DNA of 64,000 nucleotides from Allacma fusca (Eukaryota; Arthropoda; Collembola; Symphypleona; Sminthuridae): positions 72,279,067 through 72,343,066 of the forward strand of contig OX359245.1 of the NCBI GenBank assembly GCA_947179485.1. The letters run 5' to 3'. Below the pieces are notes generated by a model that was not told the DNA's origin, searched no databases, and saw only the letters and a list, made by a program, of their open reading frames with translations. Shown piece by piece: positions 2,728 to 63,294 of the stretch. Made by a program: the position numbers and the translations under genes. Numbering within the stretch: position 1 is the stretch's first letter; every line of letters begins with the position of its first letter.

Positions 2728-4365
2728 ATGGAGCTGGAAGAACTAGAAAAAAGTAACTTAAAGGATTTCAAGGAAGGAAGGAATGTTTCTTCGCCACCCT
2801 ATTTGGACCACTCTTTCGCCCACATTTCCTTTGCTCATTTTCTGCTATGTGTTGTATCAGTTGGAGTAAGTCTTATGGTTTTCGTGTCCGCCTGGTGGTG
2901 CAAGAAGCCTATTTTCACTGGGTTATTTTTAAATATGTCTCTCGTTTTAGCTAACCTATTGATGGGAATTTTGGTAATGGCTGAATTATTGTTGGATGAT
3001 GCCATACCTGGTTTATTTCAAAACAGCGGAAATTATTTCTGTTTTGCTGTGAATTTACGTATCCTGTGTCAGGGCTGTACTTTAATTTCGGCACTTCATT
3101 TTCCTGCCATACAAATCAATGCCTGGATGACCCTAGCAAAAAGAAATTACAGGAGTGTTATGACTCGTGGAACAGTTCAAAAACTGGTTTGCATGATTTG
3201 GGTTGCTGTAATTGTTGAAATAGTTTCTTATTTCTTCGCATCTGGAGTTTTCGCTGCACGTGCTGAGGAGTGTTTGGGCCTTGTTGTTTTGAAAAGATTG
3301 TCATGGAAAATTATTTGTTTTTTCTACTGCTTCGGTTCCTTCATAGCAACACTTGTGTTTTTTTTCCAACTGCAAAAACTTGTGAGGAGCCGTACAAGGA
3401 CTACTTCCCGCTATCAGGTACACAATCATTTTTTTCATGGCGACGATATTAAAAGAAAAAATTCTCTCCTATAGTTGTACACGTACCCTTGATCATTTTT
3501 GGGGCAATTTCTGGTTACATTACAGGGGAGCCGGTTTTTCCATTTGACCCTAAACTAGAGATTTTAATGTCCTCGATTCAGGGACGTAATTCCATTTTCA
3601 GGGACGAAACCACTAATTTTGAATTGACGATTCCTGGTGTTGTTGAGCAAAAAGCAAATTTTCCCCAAAATTGTTTTGAAAAACCCCTGTGAGGACGATT
3701 AAATATGACGGGAGTTCACAGCCCCACAGAATTCGGAACCCTGGCTGCAGATACCAGGTATCAAAATATAAATGAGATGCAGCTAAAAAAATATTTGACA
3801 AGTTAATATGTTTACGTATAGATACGATGGGTGGTTTCTAATGTTAAAGTATACTCTTTTTGTGGGGCTTTGAACAGGTCTAAGGACAATATTTTGTACC
3901 CCTGCGAGGTACTAGTTCTAATGGCATTCAATTTTCTTCGATTTGGGGGTTCCTACATAAAGAGCGCGTTGTAAATAAATATGAATTGTGCTAGTATATA
4001 TGTATGTTGACTCTTTGTATGACACTATTGATGACGCTGGCAATTCCTGTTATATTTGTTGTGCAAATCTCCGATGTTGCGGTGGGTTTTCAAGTATTTT
4101 TGAATTGCAACATAACTTTGCAATATATTTGTACCTTATTACGATTCACAGTATTTTGAGACAACAGTATGCACTTATTTTGTACTTTTTATCTGTATTT
4201 GGCTACATTTTGATATGTAATTCGCTACAACAGGCTGGTCTTAAACAGATGACATGTGGTTTCCTACCTGCTTCATGCAGATCATGCACATCAAAAAATC
4301 ATCCTTTAATTTTATTACTATTTGAATGTGAAGATTCATTTGGAGATTCAGCGCATGGAATTTAA
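2728..4365 (+). pseudogene. Divergent class-A 7TM receptor, unit A copy, lacks TM6
   Basis: Exon 1 (2728-3417) is open for 230 codons and nearly identical to the intact unit B gene, with TM1-TM5 and a GT donor after RYQ. After intron 1 the unit B sequence jumps: about 300 bp, including the whole TM6 exon and the first half of the TM7 exon, are missing at about 4026/4027. Only the end of exon 3 (4027-4093, TLAIPV region) remains. The C-terminal exon (4234-4365) is open and has a longer tail than in B. Without TM6 the product cannot form a normal seven-helix receptor, so I call it a pseudogene. A truncated product cannot be excluded. Confidence 0.8.
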
Positions 4366-4679: not shown

Positions 4680-4733
4680 TATACAATAGAAATATAATAA
4701 GTAATAATAAGTAATACATAATAATAATAAATA

Positions 4734-4783
<50 letters not shown>

Positions 4784-5177
4784 AATAATAATAATAAGTA
4801 ATAAATATAATAAGTATCAACTGTGCTCCGTTGAGCACCATGGATATTGAGATGTAGCCATCTCTTTTCCAAAAAACAAACATTGAATTATTTCGAGCAG
4901 CAATTGAAGTTGAGAAAATAATATTTTTATTTTCTACGTCAATCTTCATTCTGCCACTGACGGTTCACGAAGTCAGTCGCTAGTCATTTTTTTCTGTTTG
5001 CGCTGTACTGACGAGTCCCAAATTGGACGAAACACCGGTGTCTGCAGCTAACAAGGTTTCTGGTCTTAAGTATCAACTGTTAGTGGTCGCCAGAATTAAG
5101 CCTTTTGTGGAAACAGTTTGTTTCTATCATGGTATCACGTAATCCAGTTTTAAATTATTAAAATTATACAATAGAAA
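4680..5177 (+). mobile_element. Hammerhead-ribozyme retroelement insertion
   Basis: A 472-bp insert (4693-5164) is flanked by 13-bp direct repeats TATACAATAGAAA (4680-4692 and 5165-5177). Unit B has the uninterrupted site at 17578-17595, so this is a real insertion with a long, retroposon-like target duplication. The insert starts with a (TAA/TA)n microsatellite (4693-4813; pure TA at 4738-4782). A 14-bp direct repeat TAAGTATCAACTGT occurs at 4811-4824 and 5067-5080, and a hammerhead ribozyme lies between them. It has no coding capacity. Hammerheads are known from Penelope-like elements, retrozymes and some SINEs. Which of these it belongs to cannot be decided here. Confidence 0.85.
5002..5048 (+). 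ncRNA. Hammerhead ribozyme
   Basis: All core parts are in order. The stem I 5' strand is GCTGTA (5002-5007), then the conserved CTGACGA (5008-5014). Stem II is GTCC/GGAC (5015-5018 with 5025-5028) around the loop CAAATT. The conserved GAA is at 5029-5031. A very short stem III, ACACC/GGTGT, closes on itself (5032-5041) and holds the A15.1-U16.1 pair. C17 at 5042 is the cleavage position. The stem I 3' strand TGCAGC (5043-5048) pairs fully with GCTGTA, including one G-U. The minimal stem III is typical of mobile-element hammerheads, which usually act as dimers or in long repeats. Predicted cut: after 5042. Confidence 0.92.
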
Positions 5178-14765: not shown

Positions 14766-14854
14766 TGAACATAGATGTCCGATAGGATGGAGTTAAGAAA
14801 GCTGCTGTATTGAATGGGACATGGATCTGGAAGAACTGGAAAAAAGTAACTTAA
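14766..14854 (+). promoter_or_regulatory. Upstream ATGs in the receptor leader
   Basis: Three short upstream reading frames precede or overlap the receptor start: a 6-codon frame from the ATG at 14766, a second of 8 codons ending TGA about 8 bases before the start, and an ATGGGACATGG frame that overlaps the true ATG in another frame. Unit A and C leaders keep all three. They could dampen translation, or the real transcript may begin downstream of them. Confidence 0.4.
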
Positions 14855-17099
14855 AGGATTTCAAGGAAGGAAGGAATGTTTCTTCGCCCCCCTATTTGGA
14901 CCACTCTTTCGCCCACATTTCCTTTGCTCATTTTCTGCTATGTGTTGTATCAGTTGGAGTAAGTCTTATGGTTTTCGTGTCCGCCTGGTGGTGCAAGAAG
15001 CCTATTTCCCCTGGGTTATTTTTAAATATGTCTCTCGTTTTAGCTAACCTATTGATGGGAATTTTGGTAATGGCTGAATTATTGTTGGATGATGCCATAC
15101 CTGGTTTATTTCAAAACAGCGGAAATTATTTCTGTTTTGCTGTGAATTTACGTATCCTGTGTCAGGGCTGTACTTTAATTTCGGCACTTCATTTTCCTGC
15201 CATACAAATCAATGCCTGGATGACCCTAGCAAAAAGAAATTACAGGAGTGTTATTACTCGTGGAACAGTTCAAAAACTGGTTTGCATGATTTGGGTTGCT
15301 GTAATTGTTGAAATAGTTTCTTATTTCTTCGCATCTGGAGTTTTCGCTGCACGTGCTGAGGAGTGTATTGGCCTTGTTGTTTTGAAAAGATTGTTCTGGA
15401 AAATTATTTATTTTTTCTGCTGCTTCGGTTCCTTCCTAGCAACATTTGTGTTTTTTTTTCAACTGCAAAAACTTGTGAGGAGCCGTACAAGGACTACTGC
15501 CCGCTATCAGGTACATAATCATTTTTTGCACGGTGATGATATTAAAAGATCCGAGAAAATATTCTCTCCTATAGTTGTACACGTACCCTTGATATTTTTT
15601 GGACAATTTCTGGTTACATTACTGGGGAGCCGGTTTTTCTATTTGACCCTAAACCAGAGATTTTAATGTCCTTGATTCAGGGAAGTAATTCCATTTTCAG
15701 GAACGATATCCCTTATTTTGAAATGACTGGTGTTGTTGAGCAAAAAGCAAAATTTCACAAAAATATTTTGAAAAACCCTTGTGGGGACGATTAGATATCA
15801 TTGGGACCGGCAGTTCACAGTTCCACAGAATTGGGAACCCTGGCTGCAGTTACCAGGATTTAAAACATAGATGACTGCAGTTAAAAAAATATTAGACAAA
15901 TTAATATTTTTACGTTTAGATACAATAGGCGGTTCCTAATGTTAAAGTATACTCTTTGTGTGGGTCCTTGAACAGTTCTAGGGTCACTATTTTGTACCCC
16001 AAAAAGGGACTAGTTCTAACGGCATTCAATTTTCTTCGATTCGGGGGCTCCTATATAAAGAGCGCATTGTAAATAAATATGAATTGTGCTATTATATTTG
16101 TATGTTGACTCTTTGTATGACACTTGCAGGGCTCTGGGACTCCAACTAGACGAATGCACAGCGACCTAAAGTTTACTTGTGGTTTATTGCTTCTAACATT
16201 TGTAATTGGGATTCTACCAGAATCCCTATGGAATTTGCTTATTTGCGAGAATTGCTTGTTTCAGCATTCTCAGGTGAGAAATTTTATCATTAACAATAAT
16301 ATTATTTGTATCCTTAATTTGATACAGATTTAATTTGATTTAATCAACCGGTTCTAATATTTTATTCACCAGATTCCAGAGGGCGTGCAAAAAAATTTAC
16401 ATTTAATTTTTCGAACAACCCTGATATTGATGACGTTGGCAATTCCTGTTATATTTGTTGTGCAAGTATCCGATGTTGCGGTGGGTTTTCAAGTAATTAT
16501 TTTTAAATTGCAACACAACTTTGCAATATTTTTGTACCTTATTACGATTCACAGTATTTTGAGACCCCAGAGTGATTAATATTTTCAAGTCAGCAATCGG
16601 TGTGCACGTATTTTGTACTTTTTATTTGTATTTGGCTAAATTTCCCAGTATACAGGATTTCAGACCAATTTCACAATTTTCATAATCACTCCTAAGGTTA
16701 AACTTCCTAGGAGCAGTGGTAGGGTTTCCCGAGTCTCACCTAAATTTCTCAAGGATATTTTAAATTTTTTAAGTTAAAGAAAGGCCTTAAAGTTAAACTT
16801 GAGTGTAGTTTGAATCGTGAGTTTGCACTTGATGGTGCATTAAAACTGAAATTAGAACTCAAATTCTATTTGAAACCCAAGTTTGAACTCAAGTGTAACC
16901 TGAAACATGACAGTGAACTCGGAGTCAAACTTGAAATTTTTGAAATTTACTTGATGAAAACTATGATGGAAGTAATAACATTCTATTATGTAATTTGCTA
17001 CAACAGGCTGGTCTTAAACAGATGACATGTGGTTTGCTACCTGGTTCATGCAGGTCATGTACATCAAAAAGTCATCCTTCAATTACTATTTCAATGTGA
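14821..17099 (+). CDS. Divergent rhodopsin-like 7TM receptor (intact copy)
   Basis: Four exons: 14821-15510, 16130-16273, 16373-16492, 17007-17099. All introns are phase 0 with GT-AG ends (GTACAT, GTGAGA, GTAATT donors). The 348-aa product has TM1 about 35-57, TM2 65-89, TM3 104-134, TM4 150-175, TM5 190-216, TM6 243-268 and TM7 287-310, and a Cys-rich tail (Cys-x-x-Cys) fit for palmitoylation. Family-like marks are a short N-terminus with an NVSS glycosylation site at N19, Cys105 at the top of TM3 with Cys182 in the second outer loop, NMSLVLANLL in TM2, and conserved prolines in TM6 and TM7. DRY, CWxP and NPxxY are not conserved. It is therefore an orphan, divergent class-A-like receptor in the plasma membrane, ligand unknown. 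The ATG in GACATGG is chosen because it opens exon 1. An unspliced frame runs to 15666. Exon 1 is shared with units A and C, but only this copy keeps all parts. Confidence 0.85.
16644..16982. mobile_element. Insert in receptor intron 3
   Basis: About 340 bp present in unit B but not in unit A, between TTTGGCTAAATTTCCC and TGTAATTTGCTAC. It is rich in GAACTCAAGTTTGAA-like motifs, resembling the ACTTGAAC-type elements at 62.6 kb. Clear inverted ends were not identified. Confidence 0.4.
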
Positions 17100-17334: not shown

Positions 17335-18230
17335 TTAGCAGATGAAAGTATCAGGTGTCGGATTATCGTAAATCCCCCTGCAAATACATACTTTTGGATT
17401 TCCTCCTGCGGGAAATGTTAAAGCGCCCTCTCTTACTCGAGTAGAGTAGTGTAAGAGTAGGTAAACGACAAAGGAAGCAAAATGCTTTTGCAAAGCCCAT
17501 GGGTGTTGATTTTCCTTAGAATAAAGCTGAAAGTCTTTTTTATCAGAAAGCGGCTTTTCCCTGGCAACCCGGATATACATATACAATAGCAAATTCAAAA
17601 CATCGTTTGGAATGAAAGCTTCGGTGGGTTATAGTGTAAAACCGTAGTTCCAATGGGTAAACCATGTTGCTGTATGGATTAGGAATGCCACCATTAGATT
17701 TCTTGTAGTCATCCTCTATTTTAGGAGGCATGCATGTGCATAAAAAACGCTTAATATTTAGTTGCTAAAATTCATTAATAAACTTCCTTCACGATTTTGG
17801 CTCATGTTATCTCGCATTAGAATTACTTATTCTGTTCACATTAAATACAAAATAATCAGCAATAAAATTGAGTTTATTACAACTCTTGGTATTGTACACA
17901 TTGTGTTCATTGTAATCAAATACTTTCAAGAAATGAGTTTATGTCATGTGGAATTTAATATCCTGAAATTTAAAACATTTTTAAAATTGTTCCTTCGTTT
18001 TACTCAGTGCAGTCATTGTAACAAAATCAATTTTTTTACCGTTCAAGAAATTGGAAAAAACTGAAAAAGGATTCAAAACAGGTATTTTAAGCAAAAATAC
18101 TGTTTATAAGCGAGTTTCTGAAACGTATTACGCGAAATATTCTATATAATGCTTTCCTCTTATAAATAATTCCCTTTTATTGGCCAAGAATATTTTAGCA
18201 ATAACGACTGAGTTGTTCACCTTTTGGGAA
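17335..18230. other. shared 3' spacer of units A and B
   Basis: Collinear with 4439-4679 and 5178-5810. Unit B shows the site uninterrupted by the hammerhead insertion. No exon recognised. Confidence 0.45.
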
Positions 18231-22350: not shown

Positions 22351-23550
22351 CTCTTGACATCTAGAATGCACTTCCAACAATACAATAACTAAACTGTAAA
22401 CTATCCGGCAGATGACAAAATTCAACAATTTCGTGCCATGAGTTCAATCAAAATACCGAATTTCCAAAAATATCAAAGCGAACTGATATTAGAATTAAAC
22501 CAATATCTCAGTATGCCAGAGTTTCATTCGCACAGGACGACGCTATATTCATCCCGATAACACAATATCAAACCGATTGCTAGTACGTACATCTAGTACT
22601 ACCTACAATTTCTATCAATTGTTTAAAAGCACAGTACTGATCCCGTTCTACACACTGGCATAATTTGACATGCTGCAACGATGACAAAATGTTGGAGGTA
22701 ATCTGTTTAAACACCTTGGTAAGAAATTTCAAATCGAACAATGTACATAATTAAATACTATCCCTAGGACTACATCCTAACAAGTGCTTGGAATTCGCTG
22801 GTGTGTTCCAAGATTTCTAGCCTAGTTTGTACGAACAGCAGAATGATTCAAAATTATCTGTTTCTTTTAAGCCAATAAACTTGGCCTGGCAACTTTCCTG
22901 GGATGCAGGCTATAAATCACGCAATTTGTACGGTGATACAAGTTAACCGTTACAACATGCAGGCAGAACAAATATTATAAATAAGTACATGAATAGCAAA
23001 ATAACTTTTTTGTTGCTTGGTTTAAAATAGAAGTAACTCCAAAGATGTATAATTGAAACACAGTAAATATTATGCTTCCTTTGAATGATATCAAAATATT
23101 TTCCTACATATCCGGTATTTACTCCAAATGCCAGGCAAGAGCCCTACATATGTACATGCATATATTCTAATATCGTGGACAACTCTGCTTTCTTATATTT
23201 CTATACATATATTAAAGGTTCTATATAACACGGAGTCAATGTTTGGCTATTGCAGTTTAGACGCAGTGACAACAAAGCGTATACTTGTAAGTCTAAATAC
23301 ATATGTATGTATAATTCGATAGAAAATAACTGCTTTTGTATGTATAGCACTGGAAAATTTCGAATGCCAGAGCACCCCTAAAGAAACGAATTTTGACTGA
23401 AGAATTAAAGAAAGATTCCTCTTTGGTTAACTTCACGTGTAGTAAATCTCTTATTCAGAAATTGCTCTCAATATGAAAAGACACATTGTATTGTTGTAAC
23501 TATGAAGGACAAAACTAAAATAATTTTTCAAAATATATACATAATTATAC
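22351..23550. other. spacer shared by all three units, no gene seen
   Basis: Collinear with 9294-10490 and 36975-37960. No gene recognised. Confidence 0.5.
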
Positions 23551-24116
23551 TGTTAGCGGATATTTAGGTTTATGACTTTTAATACATGTAGCAATGATAT
23601 CAGCATACATATCTATACTACCCAATTGTAAAAACATATGAAATTACGTTAGGTACCTGCCCTAACTTAATATTATTGGTTAAAATGAAATCTACAGAAA
23701 ATACTGGAGGTGGGCTCTTGTGAGCTCACCTCCGGATAAAACTTCGTGCCTAAATAATAAACCTTCGAAGGTACGAAGAAGAGAGTAACTTCAGATCTCG
23801 TGCTAAACACAAGCAAGAGCACACGCAAGAGACGAACGAAGTGTATCAAATCTACGCACTATAGATAAATAAAGTATATCACGTGAGTAACTACATATAC
23901 GCACATACGCGTCTTATTTCTCGTATGCTGAGACATAAACCCGCAATCCCTCACAGCCAGCAAATGAATCTTTGCCAGCTACACATTTCCCCTTTACACT
24001 CATTCTCTCTCTCAATTCTATTAATATTCCCCATTTAATTTCCATTATTTGTGTTTACTATCATTTTTTCTCCGTGGGCACACTGATATCGCACCCCCAC
24101 AAATTAATTATTAACA
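23551..24116 (+). repeat. 5' LTR
   Basis: Starts TGTTAGCGG and ends TTAACA. A strong hairpin lies at 23706-23733 (GGAGGTG paired with CACCTCC around TTGT). AATAAA-type polyadenylation signals lie near 23872. Confidence 0.93.
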
Positions 24117-24134
24117 TGGTCGAGGTGCGGTTTT
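24117..24134 (+). other. Primer-binding site
   Basis: TGGTCGAGGTGCGG follows directly after the 5' LTR and would pair with a tRNA 3' end finishing in CCA. The tRNA was not identified. Confidence 0.6.
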
Positions 24135-24310
24135 TGACGGTTCTCACAAAAGTAAGCCCATTATAAAACTATTTTCCCTTATTTTTCGAACAATTCTGTG
24201 CAAAAATACTTGTGGCGTAAGCCGCTAAACAAAACTCTGCCCAAATTTTTCATTTTGTCCTATCACATTACCAACCAAAATCTTAGTGGCGTCAGCCGCA
24301 GCCGAAGGCT

Positions 24311-26994
24311 ATGCAGGATTTTTCTAGAAATTGTCTCGTTTCCCCGTGCCACATGTCACCTCACGATATCCGATTCATTAGAGTTATAGAACTAGACAAT
24401 CATCCAGAATTTATTAGCTGCAATAACCAAAAATATATAGCTCTATTACTAAGTGAAGGAGCACTTGTTGAACTTACTCCTGACGACCAGATCCGTGCAC
24501 GTGCCAAATATAGTCATCTCTCATCTACGAGAGCACTATACCTTTACAAGTTTTACAAACTGTTTAAGCAAAAGCTGCCTCGATACGTTAACTCCAACAT
24601 TGAGCCCCAACCAGTTGATCGAAGTGACATTAAAGTTATCCGGAAAAATCCTAGCCGAACTCCTCGATCAATAAATAGTTCGACCACGACCCTGTCTGAA
24701 ACCACCGTGGTGACCGTCCCAGACGACATCCTCACCCACGTACCATCCAGTGAAGGCGAAACTGACACCGAAGGACCAACACCAGAACCTACAACACCTC
24801 TTGGAGGCTTTGCGAGTTGCAACCCCAGTAGGACATCTACCCCTGCTGTCTCATCTGGTCCAGCAACTCATGAATCGATTTTCGATCAACGTCACAAAGT
24901 AAGTACAAACTTTAATTTGTCAAATACTCATACTATCACGGAGACACCCGTCGCTCCCCATACAAAACCCACGTCATCTCGCCTGTTCACTTCCCGAGAC
25001 TACCTCGAAGACATTGCACAGAAATTAGTGGACGACATAAAAACCAAGCAGGAAATCGACTCTTCAGGGACTAGTATCCTTACCTACGCTCATTACCAAC
25101 AATTGCTGTATGATCTTAAATTAACCACAGAAGTTACATCTGACGGTCGATTCCTCAACACAAGAGAAACATTTACAAGGATTGTAGCCCGAATTCTCCG
25201 CATCTTTACACTTTGGCAAACAAATTCCACCGAATTTGCATCCATCATCGAAGAACTTGAGGACATACAAACGTCCCTACTAGCTTCAGAATTTTTTCCA
25301 ACCGTCATTACTACTCCAGTCACAACAACTACTTCCGTGTCCACCACTAAGACCGCTACCTTTGTTATCCAAACACACAGCTACACGCCTGTAATACACG
25401 GCTCCAAGCAGCACAAAATTCCACTCAGGACATTACCCATCTTCTCAGTTACGCATATTACTTGGGATTAGTCCAAGAATTTCAGTTAGTCTCAAAATAT
25501 ACCCACAACCATTGTCATTTTTCATCTCAGCAAGCCTACAAAGATGGACTCTTTCTTTTAGACCAGGAGTTCATTTCAATCGCCACTACTACCTATCCTG
25601 ACATTTTCTCTGCTACCGTCACTATTCCAGACACTCATAACACTACTCATTCTCATACAGCTCCACAGTACAACACAGCCGTCCTTATCCCGGACGCTGA
25701 AACCACAGCCGCATACGATAGTGACAATCCCATCTATAACATCAACATAACTCCTCCACCTCTTTCTGACTCTCACTCTGACTCAGGGTCACTCCATTCG
25801 GAGTCTCTCCATTTCACCACCGCTACGAATAGCTCTTCCTCTTCTCGTTCCACTTCTCCTATTCCGACTCCTCCACCTATTCCTCCACCTATTCCTCCAC
25901 CTATTCCTCCACCAGTTCCTCCAAAAACCACAACCATGGACTATAACCGTTTCCTTTTCGATAAGCCAATTTATCCTTCCTCCAAAATCTCATCCGAAGA
26001 CCTTTCTGAATTCTTATTACGTTGTGATGATTTTTTCAACACCTTTCAAACTGATGACAACATGAAAAAATCATGTCTATCGCAAACTCTCCGACGCTTG
26101 TAAAACTGGAAAAGACTTTCTCTACCACTTCTACAATCTCACATCAACCTCTCATCAAACATATGCTCAGTTTCGAGATGCACTCCTCAACAAAATGCCA
26201 CGAGATGTTCCCGACAGAAAGAGTAAACTTTTAGATGCATTGTCCATGTCACGATATCCACATGAACAGCCAACCAAGTTTGTATTAAGAGTTAAGTCTG
26301 CTGCAAGCACAGACTGGTCCACATTTCCAGAGGCCACTACAGTTAAAACATTGTTGGAAAAACTCGACACCACTGTCAAGATTTTTATAACAAGCAAAAA
26401 TCTGAAAATTAAAAATTTCAATCATCTCTTGGATGCCTTACGCGACTTTGAATCATGCACTACTCCCCATACAGACCACAGTGCTGTTACTCTTGCAACT
26501 CCAGTCCTTCCTACATCATTGGAAAAACCCTGGCCACGCTTCTAGAGAAAATCGAGAAATTGGAAGCTAAGGAAATTCCCATTATGGCAGTCACTCAACA
26601 TGCTCAGCCACAGCGCTCACAGTACAACAATTTTCAACCTGGACTAAGTTCTAACATTCAACGAACCTACACGTGTTACAAGTGTAACCAGACCGGCCAC
26701 ACGGCACGATATTGTCCAACACGGCTAACTCAGCCTCAGAATCCAGCTTCTCAATCCCCCGAAATTTGCGGTCGTTGCTCCCGTCCGGGACATCATGCAA
26801 ACCGTTGTAGACAGTCCGTACCGATGCATTATCAACGCTTTCCACAATACCTTCAACAACGGCGTGAAGAAAGAGAACAGCAACTACAGAGTCAGCCTTT
26901 AAACTCCAACGGGCAGGCTCCACAAGGCCTGCCCCGACGCCAGCTTCTGCCTATACAAGCTGCAGACCACCAAAACTCACAAGACAGCCACTAA
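24311..26994 (+). pseudogene. gag region, frames interrupted
   Basis: Gag sequence is spread over successive open frames: 24311-25471, 25462-26103, about 26075-26545, and 26540-26994. A Pro-rich tract (repeated PPIP) lies at about 25858-25923. A capsid-like stretch continues across 26065-26070 in a new frame. Two CCHC zinc knuckles (C-x2-C-x4-H-x4-C) are at about 26674 and 26767, typical of a nucleocapsid that binds RNA. Frame changes fall at A-runs (26065-26070 and 26523-26527). The 25460 overlap may be another break or a natural junction. The function in the family is particle assembly. Confidence 0.75.
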
Positions 26995-27464
26995 TAATTC
27001 CTTCCATTACTACAGAATGTACAATTCACACCAGTGTACATTCCTTATCATGCTCACTTAAAATCATTGTCAATATTAACGGCAACTGCCTCCCGTGTCT
27101 TATCGACAAAGGGGCAGCTGCCTCCTTGATTCATCCTTTGTACGTACCTCATGGTACACAAATCACAAAGAACAATCTCACACTCATAGATGCCTCAGGA
27201 AATAACATGTCCAATACAGGACTCGCCCTTGTAAAAATCAAGATAGGCAAATGTACATTTCTACACCCTTTCATCATTGCTCTTTCCACAGCTATTCGCT
27301 GCATCCTGGGAACAGATTTTCTATACTCCAAAGGAGGTTTCGTTATCAATACTCAACAAAATACCATTATCAACAAGTTTACGAGACACTTCCCGTTATC
27401 CATACGCTCCTACAACACGATAATGCACTTAAGGAACAATGCGAAATTCCAGTGGAACCCATAG
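26995..27464 (+). pseudogene. Retroviral-type aspartic protease, altered active site
   Basis: The frame follows the zinc knuckles by a shift. Around 27060-27320 there is a protease-like order: LPCLID, then GAAAS, and later a hydrophobic ILGTDFL flap-end motif. The catalytic Asp (27105-27107) is followed by Lys-Gly where the family has Thr or Ser-Gly, which would be expected to harm catalysis. The frame ends at 27464, while another frame carries on from about 27380. Confidence 0.6.
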
Positions 27465-28530
27465 AAAACTCATCAACCAGAACACAACTGTCAAATAAAT
27501 CTCATTCTGACAAAGACCAGCAAACTACCTTCCTGCCCAACCCTTGGTTAGCATCTCCTACACCACCTGTGACCTCTTTTCCAGTCTCTACGTCTACCCA
27601 AACTCTTCCCAGTTTTCAAGACACTGCTTCTCAAACGTTTCCAACAACGAAATCAAAATCTATACATGGGAATAAATATTCCCCACCTCAAGGAAAATAT
27701 TCTCCAACTCCAGACATGTCTTCTGATGAGCCAGACCAGGAATACTTCCATCGCTCAACCCATCCACTCCGCCGACGTATATCTACCTCCAGAAGACTTA
27801 CTCTGAAAACTCCACCTACTCCCATATCATCCGTCTCAGTTATACCTTCTAAACCGTCCAAATTCCCAACAATTCCTATTTTGTGTGTCTCCAACACCAT
27901 AACTGACGATGTTCTAAGAGTAAAAGGCACACAGGTCATTCAACCCAGGTCTCATGTAACCATTGCAACCATACACTCAATTGAACAAACTTCGCCTTTA
28001 TATTTCCAACCTCATGACTCCTTACATACACAATTACATATCCTTGCTCCTCATGCAATACTCAGTCCTGACTCTAAATTCTTCCTTCTCACAAACCCAT
28101 CTTCTATGATTGTTACCTTACCAGACGGTTTGGGTCTCGGCAATTTAACCCCTTTTGACACACACGATAATTCTATGAACCCCACACATATCAATGCGAT
28201 CGATACATCCCAATTGGAAACTGAAATAGCATCATTTAAAATCAATCCGGATCTACACACTGATGATCAAACTAAACTCCGTTCATTGTTAAGAGAATAC
28301 AGGAGCTCTTTTGCATTCCACCCTCATGAGCTCGGCAAATGTTCCACAATACCATTCAAAGTCGAACTTCAACAAGGAGGTATAGTAGCTCATAAGCCCT
28401 ATAAGACCTCCTCCTATCAGGACTCCATCATCAACGCCGAAGTCAAGAAATTACTCGATAATGATATTATTGAGCCCTCCACGTCACCTTTCTCAAGTCC
28501 TGTCATCATTGTTTTCAAAAACCAAATGAC
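27380..28530 (+). pseudogene. pol linker and start of reverse transcriptase
   Basis: Open in one frame from about 27380 to 28520. A Ser/Pro/Thr-rich linker is followed by the first RT blocks (VKKLLDNDIIEPSTSPFSSP at about 28440-28500). The RT continues in a different frame after the A5 run at 28517-28521. Together with 28552-31500 it forms the polymerase. Confidence 0.7.
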
Positions 28531-28551
28531 CAGGGAATACGAAAACCTCGC

Positions 28552-31500
28552 ATGGTCATTGATTTTCGGTCACTCAACGCCATCACTAAGCCTATGCATT
28601 GGCCCCTGCCCAGCATTGACGAGATTCTCCTTCGCCTGCAAAATCAAAAGTATTTTTCAACTCTAGATCTCGCGTCAGGTTTCCATCAGATAGAGGTCGA
28701 CCCAGCCTCCAGAGAAAAACTTAGCTTCATAACAAGAAATGGACAGTATCAGTATAAGGACATGCCATTCGGGACGCGAAACTCACCCTCGCATTTTTGC
28801 CGGGTGATAGACGTTATTTTGGCAGATCTCAAATACAACACCGCTCTGGCATATGTTGATGACATTGTCATTGCTAGCCAAACCATTGACGAACATATCT
28901 CTAAACTAAGAAAAATATTCATACGCTTCGCCCAGCATAACCTCAAATTTGAACCCACAAAATGTAAATGTGGTTACGAACAAATAAATCTGCTCGGCTT
29001 CACCATCAATGCCTATGGAATTCAGCCCTACGAGGATAACCTTAATGGTTTACGGATGATGCCAGTTCCAACTAACATTACTACAGTCCAGTCTTTTCTT
29101 GGAATGGCTAACTTCTTTAGAAGATTTGTCCCAAATTTTGCACATATAGCAACACCGTTAAGAGAACTCACGAAAAAGAACACACCATTCCTGTGGACTC
29201 ATGAATGTGATCAAGAATTTAAAGCCCTAAAAAATCTCTTATTATGCAAACCAGTCTTAGCACACTATGATCACCAAAAGGAAACATTTTTATACACAGA
29301 CGCCTCCTACCAAGGACTTGGCGCTTACACGACACAACTTCACCCCGACAGTCTAGAACATCCAATTTTCTTCCTCAGCAGGCGTTTAAATAAATATGAG
29401 GCTAAGTATCATATACGACTTCTAGAACTTCTGGCCATTACATGGTCAGTCATGAAGCTAAAGAAGTATTTGCTTGGAATACACTTTACAGTACGAGCAG
29501 ATCATCACAGCTTATGCTACATCATGAAGAGTAAAGATAGCTTGGACCCCAAGCTACAACGACTGCAACTTCTACTGATGCCCTACGACGTTACAATAAA
29601 ATACGTCAAAGGCACAACTCATAAGGTGGCAGATTGCCTCAGCCGCAATCCTTTCCAAGAGCCCACACACTCCCAGACCGACGATGAAGCACGCCTCTCC
29701 GTTCATACAATAGACATTGGTACTCTCCAGAACGAACAAGCAAAAGATCCAGCTCTCATGGATATAATTAACAAACTTCCAACAAATTGGAGAGTCCGTT
29801 CAAAGTACGCTCTCTATAATAATATTTTGTATAAGCATAACAAAAAACTTGGAGAAAAATCACTACTGATGATCCCTCAACAGATGATACCAGATATAAT
29901 TAAACGTTATCACAATCCAGTGTCCCATACAGGACACACCAAAGCTCTGAAGGAAATAGCACAGAGCTACTACTGGAAAACAATGAGTAAAGACATCAAG
30001 GAATTTATACAATCTTATAAATTTTGTCAAGAACGCAAAACTCCACGTGGACACAAGGAACCCGGCGAGTTTCAATTTATTCCCATTCCTCTCCGACCCT
30101 TTGAAAGAATACAACTCGACGTACAGGGTCCATTAGCGAATGAAGAAGGACGCTCACGATATATCATAACCGCCATTTGCTATCTAACAAAATTTTTAGT
30201 AACTGAAGTTGTGGCAACAGCCGATGTTAATGCTATAGCAAAATTTATTTTCAACAAAATAACCGCAGTCTATTCCCTTCCGGAAATCATACAATCAGAC
30301 CAGGATACAGAATTCAACAATACAGTCCTTACTGAACTTTCAAAACTCTTTGATTTTAAGATGCAGTATTCCACAGCCTTTCATCCCCAAAGTCAGGGCC
30401 TCATCGAGAGGACCCACCAAACCCTAGGCGACTGTATTGCCATGTATAGAGCTGAAAATAAGGCCGACTGGCCCCACACAATTCCCGCAATTACATTCCA
30501 CATCAACAATACATCTCACTGCTCCCACGGTTTTACACCATTCTATGTGCTGCATGGTTTTCATGCACGCACCCCGTTGAGAAATGCATTCCCTACCTTT
30601 ACTCCCGAAAACCGGAACGTCCAAGACATGACTTCTCTTTGGAAAACTACTCATGACATTTTGACACGTCACAGAGTAAAATATGCTGCCCGTGTAAATA
30701 AATCCAAACGAACCGTCACCTACGAAATTGGAGACAATGTCCTCCTTGAACACACGTCCATACAGCCTGGCACAAGTGCAAAGTTACTTCCCAGATGGAA
30801 AGAACCATTTTCTGTTATTGATCGGCCCTCAGAAATCAATTATACTATTCGTGGATATGTTGGCAACACGGTCAAAATTCTTACAGTTCATGTGTCCAGA
30901 CTAAAAATATTCCATGAACGCCCCAACATGTTCAACACTAAATCTCTACTCAATAATGAATATGAGTCTCCCGAACAGGAGCCGTCTACAAATCTACAGG
31001 ACATTCCTCCAGAACTCACTAAATCTACAGGAGAACTAATCTCTCCGGAACCTGATATAATCCCTGAGATTATTTCTGAGGAACCCTTACGTCCGAACCC
31101 TGAAACTGCTCCTGATCCAGATTTACCTACACCTCAAAATCATGCATTTCCACTACGGGATACCGTACCCCCATTTCCAGCGCAACATATTCCTACTATT
31201 ATTCCAGAAATTCAAGAGCAACCTCATAAACCTACATATAAAGAAGCACTATTGTCCATGCCACAAAATTCCACTATGGAAATTCCTCATTCCTCCTCTA
31301 TAACAATTCCTAATAAACGTATTAGGAGAACCCAGCAACAACTCTTGGAACAGGAGTCTCAACAATTATTACCCACAGATTTTTATTCCCGTACAGATTC
31401 GGAATTTAGACGTAGCACCCGGACTAATATTCATGCTATGGATAGTTTATACCACTATGCAACGGTTCAGCCTACCAATAATCACAGTTATCAGCTATAA
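28552..31500 (+). CDS. pol: pol: reverse transcriptase, RNase H, integrase
   Basis: 982 codons. RT: FRSLN near the start and YVDD at 28852-28863. RNase H: TDASYQG, a later conserved Glu and RADHH. Integrase: an N-terminal His-His-Cys segment in which the first Cys of the usual Cys-x2-Cys is Tyr, then the DD35E triad with Asp at 30118-30120, Asp at 30298-30300 and Glu at 30406-30408 (35 residues between the last two). A C-terminal EPFSV module resembles GPY/F. A long Pro-rich tail of about 180 residues follows. The true polyprotein begins upstream in other frames. The domain order is that of Ty3/gypsy. Confidence 0.9.
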   Translation: MVIDFRSLNAITKPMHWPLPSIDEILLRLQNQKYFSTLDLASGFHQIEVDPASREKLSFITRNGQYQYKDMPFGTRNSPSHFCRVIDVILADLKYNTALAYVDDIVIASQTIDEHISKLRKIFIRFAQHNLKFEPTKCKCGYEQINLLGFTINAYGIQPYEDNLNGLRMMPVPTNITTVQSFLGMANFFRRFVPNFAHIATPLRELTKKNTPFLWTHECDQEFKALKNLLLCKPVLAHYDHQKETFLYTDASYQGLGAYTTQLHPDSLEHPIFFLSRRLNKYEAKYHIRLLELLAITWSVMKLKKYLLGIHFTVRADHHSLCYIMKSKDSLDPKLQRLQLLLMPYDVTIKYVKGTTHKVADCLSRNPFQEPTHSQTDDEARLSVHTIDIGTLQNEQAKDPALMDIINKLPTNWRVRSKYALYNNILYKHNKKLGEKSLLMIPQQMIPDIIKRYHNPVSHTGHTKALKEIAQSYYWKTMSKDIKEFIQSYKFCQERKTPRGHKEPGEFQFIPIPLRPFERIQLDVQGPLANEEGRSRYIITAICYLTKFLVTEVVATADVNAIAKFIFNKITAVYSLPEIIQSDQDTEFNNTVLTELSKLFDFKMQYSTAFHPQSQGLIERTHQTLGDCIAMYRAENKADWPHTIPAITFHINNTSHCSHGFTPFYVLHGFHARTPLRNAFPTFTPENRNVQDMTSLWKTTHDILTRHRVKYAARVNKSKRTVTYEIGDNVLLEHTSIQPGTSAKLLPRWKEPFSVIDRPSEINYTIRGYVGNTVKILTVHVSRLKIFHERPNMFNTKSLLNNEYESPEQEPSTNLQDIPPELTKSTGELISPEPDIIPEIISEEPLRPNPETAPDPDLPTPQNHAFPLRDTVPPFPAQHIPTIIPEIQEQPHKPTYKEALLSMPQNSTMEIPHSSSITIPNKRIRRTQQQLLEQESQQLLPTDFYSRTDSEFRRSTRTNIHAMDSLYHYATVQPTNNHSYQL

Positions 31501-33260
31501 CCACACAGATATTGGGTCCGACTTCATTTGCAAATATATGCTCTATGCTACACAAAATTCATGGACAGCCCTTCAGTTACAGTAGAGTTTTATTCCACAC
31601 ACAACACTTACAACTCCCATTTCGGAGTCGTTTACAAATCAGAAATTCAATACACTACATCATGCTACTATAGGTTCACTGACCTCTCTTGACCTCAAAA
31701 TTTTCTGTCTTTATTCACGAAAAAATTTGGCGTGACCCGTCTACGACAGGACCACCCGAGGGTTTCCCCCCCAACCCCCCCTAAGTGGAAGGCCACCCCT
31801 CCCTCACGGAGTGACACTTCCCCCTTGAGTATCAGCCCTTCTAAAGGTATCACATGATGTCCTGTCTTCTTCAACTAACCAGAAGTACTGTATCAAGAAA
31901 AACTACAGAAAATTCAAAACAATAATCTGTGCCTTTTCAAAGGTCACATCCTCGGTAATTTGTCTAAGTCCCAAGTGTTATTAAAATTGACCAACGTTAT
32001 TAAACACACACACAACCATCCTATGGCAGGGGTTCCCGACCCTCTCAGGTGCCTTGAACTACCATTGAACGCTTCGGACCAACAAGTCTCTGTGTGCTCA
32101 TAACGTTGGCCACCTCAATTACACTATAACCGACCATCATTAACAAATTACCTGGATCTACGAATTGCAAGGGCAAGACAACCGCAGACCCGTACTCCTA
32201 ACAAAAATAAAAAAAAATACAAGAAAGAAAAGAAGAACATTGTACGAAGAACAAATAATATTAACTGGAACTTCACAAATTTTTCAATGGTGATCAGCAC
32301 CAGCACACAGATTTCCGTTGTCACCCTGTAACATTACAAACCCTGCATTATAATTTTATTCTGAGAAAAAATACTAATGTTCAAATTTCTTTCTGAGTTC
32401 CAGCAATTTACAACTCACTTTTGCAGACTTCACAACATGACCCACATTCACGGATGTTCAGGTCAGCACCCTCTATGATGACAACTCCAACTGCAACCAC
32501 ACATGGGACGCCATGACATTTGCAAGTCATCCATCAAGAAAATTACAAAAAAAAATATTATATTTCATTACTAACATTTTTTTCTAGCTTCACTAACACT
32601 AATTCTCACACATCACACTCTTATATTACACACATAGGAATTTTTATTTTAGCTTTATACATACGTACTATGAGCTGCAGCTCCCAACACATTTTTCTTC
32701 ATTTCCAGAAATTGTAATTGATCACTACATTTCGCCACTTCCCCTTAGACACCCTGTATACACACAAAAATTCTGTAAAATCTATTATACACACACTTAA
32801 ATTTCATACTATAAGCTCTTTTTCAATTTCAATCTCACTAATCCAATAGAAAAATTGTTACTCACCGTGTATAAACTCTCCATCTTGCGAATCCCCTCTC
32901 CACATTTTGCTCAATATTGTCTTAAGAATTCTGGGGACAGAATTTTCTGCCACTCCAGGAAGTATATACTAACTGTTTGTGTCTAAAACTAACACTGTTC
33001 TAATGCAAATGCACATTTTAATACGAATATTGTATGTTGAAAAGATAATATTTCAAAGACTAACCTTTGTGGAGAATAGTTTTCGAGTTCAAACTCCAAC
33101 AGCAAAGAAGACGAGTGCAAAAAGAAACTACGTCGTCCCGGCCCAAATTGGAAGCGGCCAGAAATACCAACAGCAACAAAAAATTCCATGACAAAGTTCG
33201 ACATTTTTCATTGCCTAACATTTTAAACGATGAGGACATCGTTTCCCATTCCTCCTATAA
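31501..33260 (+). other. 3' untranslated part of the LTR element
   Basis: 1.76 kb without a convincing frame and no envelope-like gene. A C-rich stretch lies at 31760-31800. The sequence just before the 3' LTR (TTCCCATTCCTCCTATAA) is not the usual purine tract. Confidence 0.6.
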
Positions 33261-33826
33261 TGTTAGCGGATATTTAGGTTTATGACTTTTAATACATGTA
33301 GCAATGATATCAGCATACATATCTATACTACCCAATTGTAAAAACATATGAAATTACGTTAGGTACCTGCCCTAACTTAATATTATTGGTTAAAATGAAA
33401 TCTACAGAAAATACTGGAGGTGGGCTCTTGTGAGCTCACCTCCGGATAAAACTTCGTGCCTAAATAATAAACCTTCGAAGGTACGAAGAAGAGAGTAACT
33501 TCAGATCTCGTGCTAAACACAAGCAAGAGCACACGCAAGAGACGAACGAAGTGTATCAAATCTACGCACTATAGATAAATAAAGTATATCACGTGAGTAA
33601 CTACATATACGCACATACGCGTCTTATTTCTCGTATGCTGAGACATAAACCCGCAATCCCTCACAGCCAGCAAGTGAATCTTTGCCAGCTACACATTTCC
33701 CCTTTACACTCATTCTCTCTCTCAATTCTATTAATATTCCCCATTTAATTTCCATTATTTGTGTTTACTATCATTTTTCCTCCGTGGGCACACTGATATC
33801 GCACCACCACAAATTAATTATTAACA
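33261..33826 (+). repeat. 3' LTR
   Basis: Identical in length to the 5' LTR. I see three differences: A/G in CAGCAARTGAATC, T/C in the TTTTTYCTCC stretch and C/A in GCACCMCCAC. It is followed by TATATATATAACATATG microsatellite sequence. Confidence 0.93.
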
Positions 33827-35909: not shown

Positions 35910-36600
35910 ATGGAGCTGGAAGAACTAGAAAAAAGAAACTTACGGGATTTCAATGAAGGAAGGAATGTTTCTTCGCCACCCTATTTGAACCACTCTTTCC
36001 TCTTTCACATTTCCTTTGCTCGTTTTCTGCTATGTGTTGTATCAGTTGTAGTAAGTCTTCTGGTTTTCGTGTTCGCTTGGTGGTGCAAGAGGCCTATTTC
36101 CCCTGGGTTATTTTTAAATATGTCTCTCGTCTTAGTTTACCTCTTTATGGGAATTTTGGTAATCGCTGAATTATTATTGGATGAGTACATACCTGGTTTA
36201 TTTCAAAATAGCGGAAATTATTTCTGTTTTGCTGTGAATTTACGTATCCTGTGTCTGGGCTGTACTTTAATTTCGGCACTTCATTTTCCTGCTATACAAT
36301 TCAATGCCTGGATGACCCTAGCAAAACGAAATTACAGGAGTTTTATGACTCGTCGAACAGTTCAAAAACTGGTTTGCATGATTTGGGTGGCTGGAATTGT
36401 TGAAATATTCTCTTATTTCTTCGCATCTGGAGTTTTCACTGCACGTGTTAAGGAGTGTATGGGCCTTGTTGTTTTGAAAAGATTGTTCTGGCAAATTATT
36501 TATTTTTTCTGCTGCTTTGGTTCCTTCATAGCAACACTGTGTTTTTTTCCAACTGCAAAAACTTGTGAGGAGTCGTACAAGGACTACTGCCCGCTATCAG
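35910..36600 (+). pseudogene. 7TM receptor, unit C copy, exon 1 only and frameshifted
   Basis: Matches exon 1 of the intact gene through TM1-TM4 with more substitutions and two extra residues after NHSF. Near 36537-36548 two bases are missing in the TTGTGTTTTTT stretch of TM5, which puts the end of TM5 out of frame and stops the frame at 36611. The TM6, TM7 and tail exons are absent because of the unit C deletion, so it is a clear pseudogene. Confidence 0.88.
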
Positions 36601-36611
36601 GTACACAATAA

Positions 36612-61107: not shown

Positions 61108-61850
61108 TATCAAGTTCAAGTCGCGTTCAAGTCATAGTCAAGTCAAGTTCAAGTGGCGTTCAAGTCATGGTCAAGTCAAGTTCAAGTCGCGTTCAAGTCA
61201 TGGTCAAGTCAAGTTCGAGTGGCGTTCAAGTCATGGTCAAGTCAAGTTCAAGTCGCGTTCAAGTCATGGTCAAGTCAAGTTCGAGTGGCGTTCAAGTCAT
61301 GGTCAAGTCAAGTTCAAGTCGCATTCAAGTCATGGTCTAGTCAAGTTTAAGTTGCATTCAAGGCATGGTCAAGTCAAGTTCAAGTCGCGTTCAAGTCATG
61401 GTCAAGTCAAGTTCAAGTCGCGTTCAAGTCATGGTCAAGTTAAGTTCAAGTCAGGGTCAAGTCAAGTTCAAGTGGCGTTCAAGTCATGGCCAAGTCAAGT
61501 TCAAGTGGCGTTCAAGTGGCCTTCAAGTCTAGTTCAAGTCATGGTCAAGTGAAATTCAAGTCGCGTTCAAGTCATGGTCAAGTCAAGTTCAAGTCACATT
61601 CAAGTCATGGTCAAGTCAAGTTCAAGTCGAATTCAAGGCATGGTCAAGTCAAGTTCAAGTCGCGTTCAAGTCATGGTCAAGTCAAGTTCAAGTCGCGTTC
61701 AAGTCATGGTCAAGTTATGTTTAAGTCATGGTCACGTCGCGTTCAAGTCATGGTCAAGTCGCGTTCAAGTCATGGTCAAGTCGCGTTCATGTAATGGTCA
61801 AGTGAAGTTCAAGTCACGGTCAAGTCAAGTTCAAGCCAAGTTTGGAACTT
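61108..61850 (+). repeat. 33-bp tandem array
   Basis: More than 20 copies of a 33-base unit, GTTCAAGTCATGGTCAAGTC plus AAGTTCAAGTCGC, itself built from CAAGT pentamers. The long plus-strand frames (repeated VAFKSWSSQVQ) exist only because the period is a multiple of three. Not a gene. Confidence 0.9.
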
Positions 61851-62620: not shown

Positions 62621-63294
62621 ATTTCTACCAGAGCTACGTTCAAGTGAAGTTATTTTAGACAATTTGACTTAAACTTGACTTGAACCTGACTTGACTTGAA
62701 CTTGACTTGAACTTGACTTGACTTGAACTTCACTTAAACTTGACTTGACTTGACTTGAACTTGACTTAAACTTGACTTGATTTGAACTTGACTTGAACTT
62801 GACTTAAACTTGACTTGATTTGAACTTGACTTGAACTTGACTTGAACTTGACTTGAACTTGACTTGAACTTGAATTAAACTTGACTTGAACTTGAGTTCA
62901 ACTTGACTTAAACTTGAGTTCAACTTGACTTGAACTTGAGTTTAACTTGACTTGAACTTGAGTTCAACTTGACTTGAACTTGAAAAATTGTCTAAGCGAG
63001 GTATCCGCACTTGTAATTTATGAATCAAGTTTCTCAAGCAACTTGAGTATTCAAGTACTCGAATTTCCAGTTCATTTCATTGAACTTGAACTTGAATTTA
63101 TTTTGAAATTAAGTAACCAATTATGAAGTTGAACTTGATTGAACTTGAAAACTCAAGTTAAAATTATAATTTCACTTGAACTTGATGTTTAAGTTTAAAG
63201 TTACAAAATTGTCTGTACATGACTTGGCTTGAACTTGATACGCACTTGAACTATTCAAGTTATACTTGAATTTGAACGCAGCTCTGATTTCGAC
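62621..63294. mobile_element. hAT-like element filled with ACTTGAACTTG motifs
   Basis: 658-bp element (62629-63286) with ends CAGAGCTACGTTCAAG and TTGAACGCAGCTCTG, flanked by ATTTCTAC / ATTTCGAC (7 of 8). It is one long array of ACTTGAACTTG units. The CAGAGCT ends link it to 34568-35659. Confidence 0.88.

Follow-up and report, generated by a model that had tools for sequence, protein, structure and literature searches.

Features of the locus

The window, by which we mean the whole 64-kb stretch of DNA analysed here, holds three paralogous gene copies (2728-3474, 14821-15666 and 35910-36611) whose products, of about 230-280 aa, resemble membrane proteins. Two of the three gave a sub-threshold match to DUF2189, and the 281-aa protein of the second copy had no homologue at E 0.001 among 698 candidates. 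Directly upstream of the first copy lies a tandem array of a 54-bp unit (2070-2644, about 10.7 copies). At 792-902, both strands gave matches to microRNA models that fell short of the gathering scores, a pattern that a long hairpin would produce, or else an inverted-repeat transposon of small size.

Further downstream, a Gypsy/Ty3-type LTR retrotransposon occupies 23546-33560 on the forward strand, with matches to a zinc knuckle, reverse transcriptase, RNase H and integrase. Its 305-bp LTRs (23546-23850 and 33256-33560) are 99.7% identical, so its insertion appears young. The polyprotein gave 694 matches, and the top-scoring among the matches listed had 35% identity over 82%. Animal names among its named relatives, together with the layout of the window, suggest that the DNA comes from an animal. 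Near the right end of the window, two minisatellite arrays (61110-61835 and 62664-62983), whose related 11-bp-based units run in opposite directions, together make long imperfect inverted repeats.

A 472-bp insertion and its empty site

The subject of this study is a short insertion in unit A, which has a paralogue in unit B. Its features, and those of the corresponding site in unit B, are as follows.

4693..5164, + (the strand of the ribozyme): 472-bp insertion absent from unit B, from flank comparison
4680..4692, no strand: left copy of a 13-bp target duplication, TATACAATAGAAA, from the sequence and comparison with unit B
5165..5177, no strand: right copy of the 13-bp target duplication, from the sequence and comparison with unit B
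17580..17592, no strand: empty site in paralogous unit B, a single copy with one mismatch, from flank comparison
4693..4810, no strand: leftmost 118 bp of the insertion, an A+T tract with 3.4% G+C, putatively part of an older outer element
5081..5164, no strand: right piece of the insertion, 84 bp, putatively part of the same older outer element

When unit A was aligned with unit B, the match of the left flank stopped at 4692/17592 and that of the right flank began at 5165/17580, with 92-93% identity in the flanks. The two flank matches thus overlap by 13 bp in unit B, which has one copy of the sequence where unit A has two. The two copies of TATACAATAGAAA are identical, the unit B version differs by one base, and no other 13-mer in the window recurs at a distance of 485. 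The flanks had no match in the third unit, near 36 kb. An insert with a 13-bp target duplication missing from unit B, as described in an earlier note on this DNA, is thus borne out by a perfect duplication and a matching empty site. Judged from this comparison, one insertion event at 4693-5164 is secure, and its plain reading is that the insertion postdates the duplication that gave units A and B. Since the 13-bp duplication encloses the A+T tract, the tract either arrived with the insert or expanded inside it; part of it may stem from separate microsatellite growth in unit A.

A complete hammerhead motif

The right half of the insertion contains a hammerhead ribozyme motif, whose parts can be read directly from the letters.

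5002..5048, +: type I hammerhead ribozyme (Rfam), predicted cut between 5042 and 5043
5002-5007/5043-5048, +: stem I
5008-5014, +: CTGACGA core
5015-5018/5025-5028, +: stem II
5019-5024, +: loop
5029-5032, +: GAAA
5032-5034/5039-5041, +: stem III
4995..5053, +: hammerhead with prolonged stem I, from a fold with enforced pairs; the unconstrained fold differs

The earlier note had placed every core part of a hammerhead at 5002-5048, and all of them are present. The covariance-model search proposed there gave the same answer: when the 64-kb window was scanned against 4227 Rfam families, the segment matched RF00163 over the whole model (1-45) with 42.2 bits, where the gathering score is 34, and an E value of 2.1e-7 for 64 kb. 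It was the sole match in the window to reach a gathering score. Seven matches had E <=1, namely the hammerhead and six microRNA models below their gathering scores. When 4680-5177 was scanned alone, the four other matches listed had 10.7 to 17.3 bits against gathering scores of 45 to 95. The pattern CTGANGA followed by 8-30 bases and CGAAA likewise occurs once on both strands of the window. Because the core is full and the E value was obtained against 4227 families, a chance origin of the likeness is very unlikely.

With the hammerhead pairs enforced, stem I is followed by an internal loop (4999-5001/5049) and then by another helix (4995-4998/5050-5053) that prolongs it. A prolonged helix I with an internal loop is described in PMC6155905 as a layout that allows contact between helix I and loop II. 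On this modelled structure, the looped stem I could possibly allow such a contact here. The preferred fold of 4975-5070 was -20.8 kcal/mol against -14.8 for the hammerhead, and that of the 47-nt core -11.1 against -8.4, under an energy model that leaves the special pairs of the hammerhead core uncounted.

A 14-bp repeat delimits a putative unit

An exact direct repeat flanks the ribozyme within the insertion and provides the putative boundaries of a smaller unit.

4811..4824, no strand: left copy of an exact 14-bp repeat, from a repeat search; putative inner target duplication
5067..5080, no strand: right copy of the exact 14-bp repeat, from a repeat search; putative inner target duplication
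4825..5066, +: ribozyme-bearing unit of 242 bp, 40% G+C, with putative boundaries taken from the 14-bp repeat

The repeat, TAAGTATCAACTGT, had been noticed previously as enclosing the ribozyme; its two copies are indeed exact, lie 256 bp apart and form the longest direct repeat in 4811-5164. Only 1 of 5000 dinucleotide shuffles of 4811-5164 had a direct repeat of at least 14 bp, and by this measure the repeat is unlikely to be due to chance. Such repeats were found in 32 of 339 real 354-bp stretches of the window, which contains tandem and simple repeats, and the 14-mer itself recurs with up to two mismatches at three further places in the window. Neither copy continues in register on either side, which disfavours a second tandem unit, and no unit-length repeat was found in the insert. 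We infer from these letters that the 242-bp unit may be nested in an older insertion, which is simpler than taking the repeat copies as ends of tandem units. Since we found no further copy of the 242-bp unit or of the outer element, nor a copy of the inner empty site, it is the 14-bp repeat that carries both the nesting and the unit length.

Predicted folding of the unit RNA

Folded as a circle, the 242-nt unit had a z score of -2.85 (200 shuffles) or -2.19 (60 shuffles). The 256-nt version scored better as a circle (z -3.42 and -3.35), the whole of 4811-5164 reached -2.90 when linear and -3.01 when circular, and for the 242-nt unit the minus strand gave -2.15. As controls, 90 stretches of 242 nt with G+C 30-48% were each compared with 40 shuffles; their z scores had a mean of -0.37 and an sd of 1.31, and four were -2.85 or lower, the lowest being -3.48. 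The signal is weak: the predictions suggest that the unit RNA pairs with itself, and they fail to single out the 242-bp unit, because 4811-5164 and the minus strand score similarly. The segment 5050-5110, which spans the right boundary of the unit, gave no structural signal (z -0.91).

The circular folds also contain an ACTGAC/GTCAGT hairpin, which lies in the 242-bp unit upstream of the ribozyme, at 4959-4982. It resembles the core letters CTGACG and CGAA, probably by chance.

Searches for relatives and coding capacity

Neither phages nor plasmids contained a match to the 354-bp stretch 4811-5164. A strict hammerhead pattern had no match in viral or genome contigs, nor did a pattern with stem III spacing find any; a looser pattern matched at least 120 viral contigs. 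Four sequence strings from the element were absent from the papers searched.

The ORFs overlapping the insert had no Pfam match. Of the 103 ORFs of at least 75 aa in the window, 85 were scanned (8 in their start-codon form and 77 others), and the remaining 18 lay in tandem repeats or overlapped the Gypsy element. No Penelope or GIY-YIG match was found in these 85 ORFs, and the only reverse transcriptase was of the Gypsy type. We also considered a tRNA-derived or pol III SINE, which was unsupported: ARAGORN (bacterial code) found no tRNA, and likenesses to pol III boxes had one mismatch and occurred on the minus strand only.

Origin of the insertion

The reading that we favour, and hold to be somewhat probable, is that the ribozyme sits in a single copy of a non-autonomous retroelement resembling the animal retrozymes, with a type I hammerhead, its 242-bp unit being nested in an older element. 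An older element, comprising the A+T tract and the 84-bp right piece, would have inserted first, with the 13-bp duplication; the 242-bp unit would then have entered this element and produced the 14-bp duplication. Duplications of 13-14 bp would be in keeping with a LINE-type enzyme and target-primed reverse transcription. A Penelope-type enzyme also suits duplications of such length by the same route. The copied template would have been uncleaved at the ribozyme site, either a circle or a longer uncleaved RNA, because the unit contains the complete ribozyme and terminates 24 nt beyond the cut.

The earlier note had suggested a non-autonomous element whose RNA is processed, perhaps circularised, by self-cleavage. 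A hammerhead-bearing retroelement is well supported, whereas circularisation from this copy is not: one hammerhead allows one cut only, a lone copy therefore releases no monomer and yields no circle, and where circles are concerned the single copy probably represents a dead end. More narrowly, and as a tentative suggestion that we think unlikely, the 242-bp unit may correspond to precisely one lap around an RNA circle made by the ribozyme, which integrated away from the cut and gained a 14-bp duplication of its own. If true, the unit would record reverse transcription once around a circle, and its two ends would be known to the exact base.

The same letters can be read as one element inserted once, either the whole 472 bp or 4811-5164 with a grown A+T tract, and of retrozyme- or SINE-like nature. 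The 14-bp repeat would then either be internal to the element or show that copying briefly overran a circular template of 256 nt. That a single insertion is secure from unit B agrees with this, as does the finding that the 242-nt unit folds no better than either the 256-nt circle or the 354-nt stretch. An overrun would however be expected in register or at the end of the insert, and the second 14-bp copy stops 84 bp short of that end, while structure across 5066 was no better than in shuffles (z -0.91); we regard one simple insertion as the less likely course, though one of appreciable weight. It is improbable, in our judgement, that the insert is a truncated-copy fragment of the pseudo-LTR of a Penelope-like element. 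Such elements bear type I hammerheads and prefer AT-rich targets, but the hammerheads described for them are minimal, without helix III or loop contacts (PMC11167929, PMC7761336), and the motif here has a modelled stem III and possibly a looped stem I; the scan of 85 of the 103 ORFs gave no Penelope or GIY-YIG match.

Two further explanations concern the ribozyme itself. Its predicted minimum-energy folds differ from the hammerhead, as they would in an inactive relic or a chance likeness that does not self-cleave; set against the full core and its E value, we consider this very improbable, although activity may have been lost. Even less credence goes to a host function in which the membrane-protein gene at 2728-3474 yields a transcript whose 3' part the ribozyme cuts. 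The ribozyme is on the strand of that gene, roughly 1.5 kb 3' of its reading frame, and hammerheads in the 3' UTRs of rodent Clec2 genes are on record (PMC6155905), but its lack in unit B marks it as young.

Comparison with known hammerhead elements

In PMC7229834, animal non-LTR retrozymes are described as dimers to multimers with units of 150-450 bp, G+C below 50% and target duplications longer than 4 bp. Their tandem units are transcribed and each hammerhead cuts, and circles of about 170-400 nt are probably closed by the host tRNA ligase; the authors propose that a LINE- or Penelope-type enzyme then copies the circles back. The return of retrozymes to DNA has so far been inferred, and the candidate partner enzymes named in PMC7229834 and in a review are not proven. 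The copy described here is younger than a local duplication, has its empty site at hand and perhaps has defined ends, which lets the reverse transcriptase and the form of the template be asked about; otherwise it is one more copy of an already described kind of element. Narrow literature searches, which show little, found nothing on nested retrozymes with a target site duplication and nothing from 2021 on retrozymes with Penelope in coral genomes.

The 242-bp unit shares with the retrozymes of PMC7229834 a hammerhead of type I whose stem III has few pairs. With its putative boundaries and 40% G+C it falls inside their range for size and G+C, and the coral units described there measure 220-245 bp. 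Like them it has no LTRs, no coding match and a duplication longer than 4 bp, 13 bp here or 14 bp if nested; duplications of 15 bp are reported for Nematostella repeats (PMC4918200). In contrast to the tandem retrozymes of PMC7229834, the locus has one unit and one ribozyme, and the apparent nesting is a further difference. Because the tandem arrangement is not found at the locus, we call the unit retrozyme-like and claim no membership of the family, which is not proven.

The insertion is also short and non-coding, and its hammerhead is of type I. One known class of short hammerhead elements is SINE-like in nature, and shares these traits; the insertion differs in that no tRNA was found in it and its likenesses to pol III boxes have one mismatch and lie on the minus strand. 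Penelope-like pseudo-LTRs (PMC7761336, PMC11167929) have the type I hammerhead and the AT-rich target in common with the insert. They differ from it in that the insert has a modelled stem III and possibly a looped stem I, and no reverse transcriptase or GIY-YIG match came from the ORFs scanned. The LTR retrozymes of plants are likewise non-autonomous retroelements with a hammerhead; as described in PMC4918200, they are unlike the insert in that their hammerheads are of type III and lie within LTRs some 350 bp long, and in making 4-bp duplications. The element belongs to a wider known kind, the hammerhead-bearing retroelements of animals.
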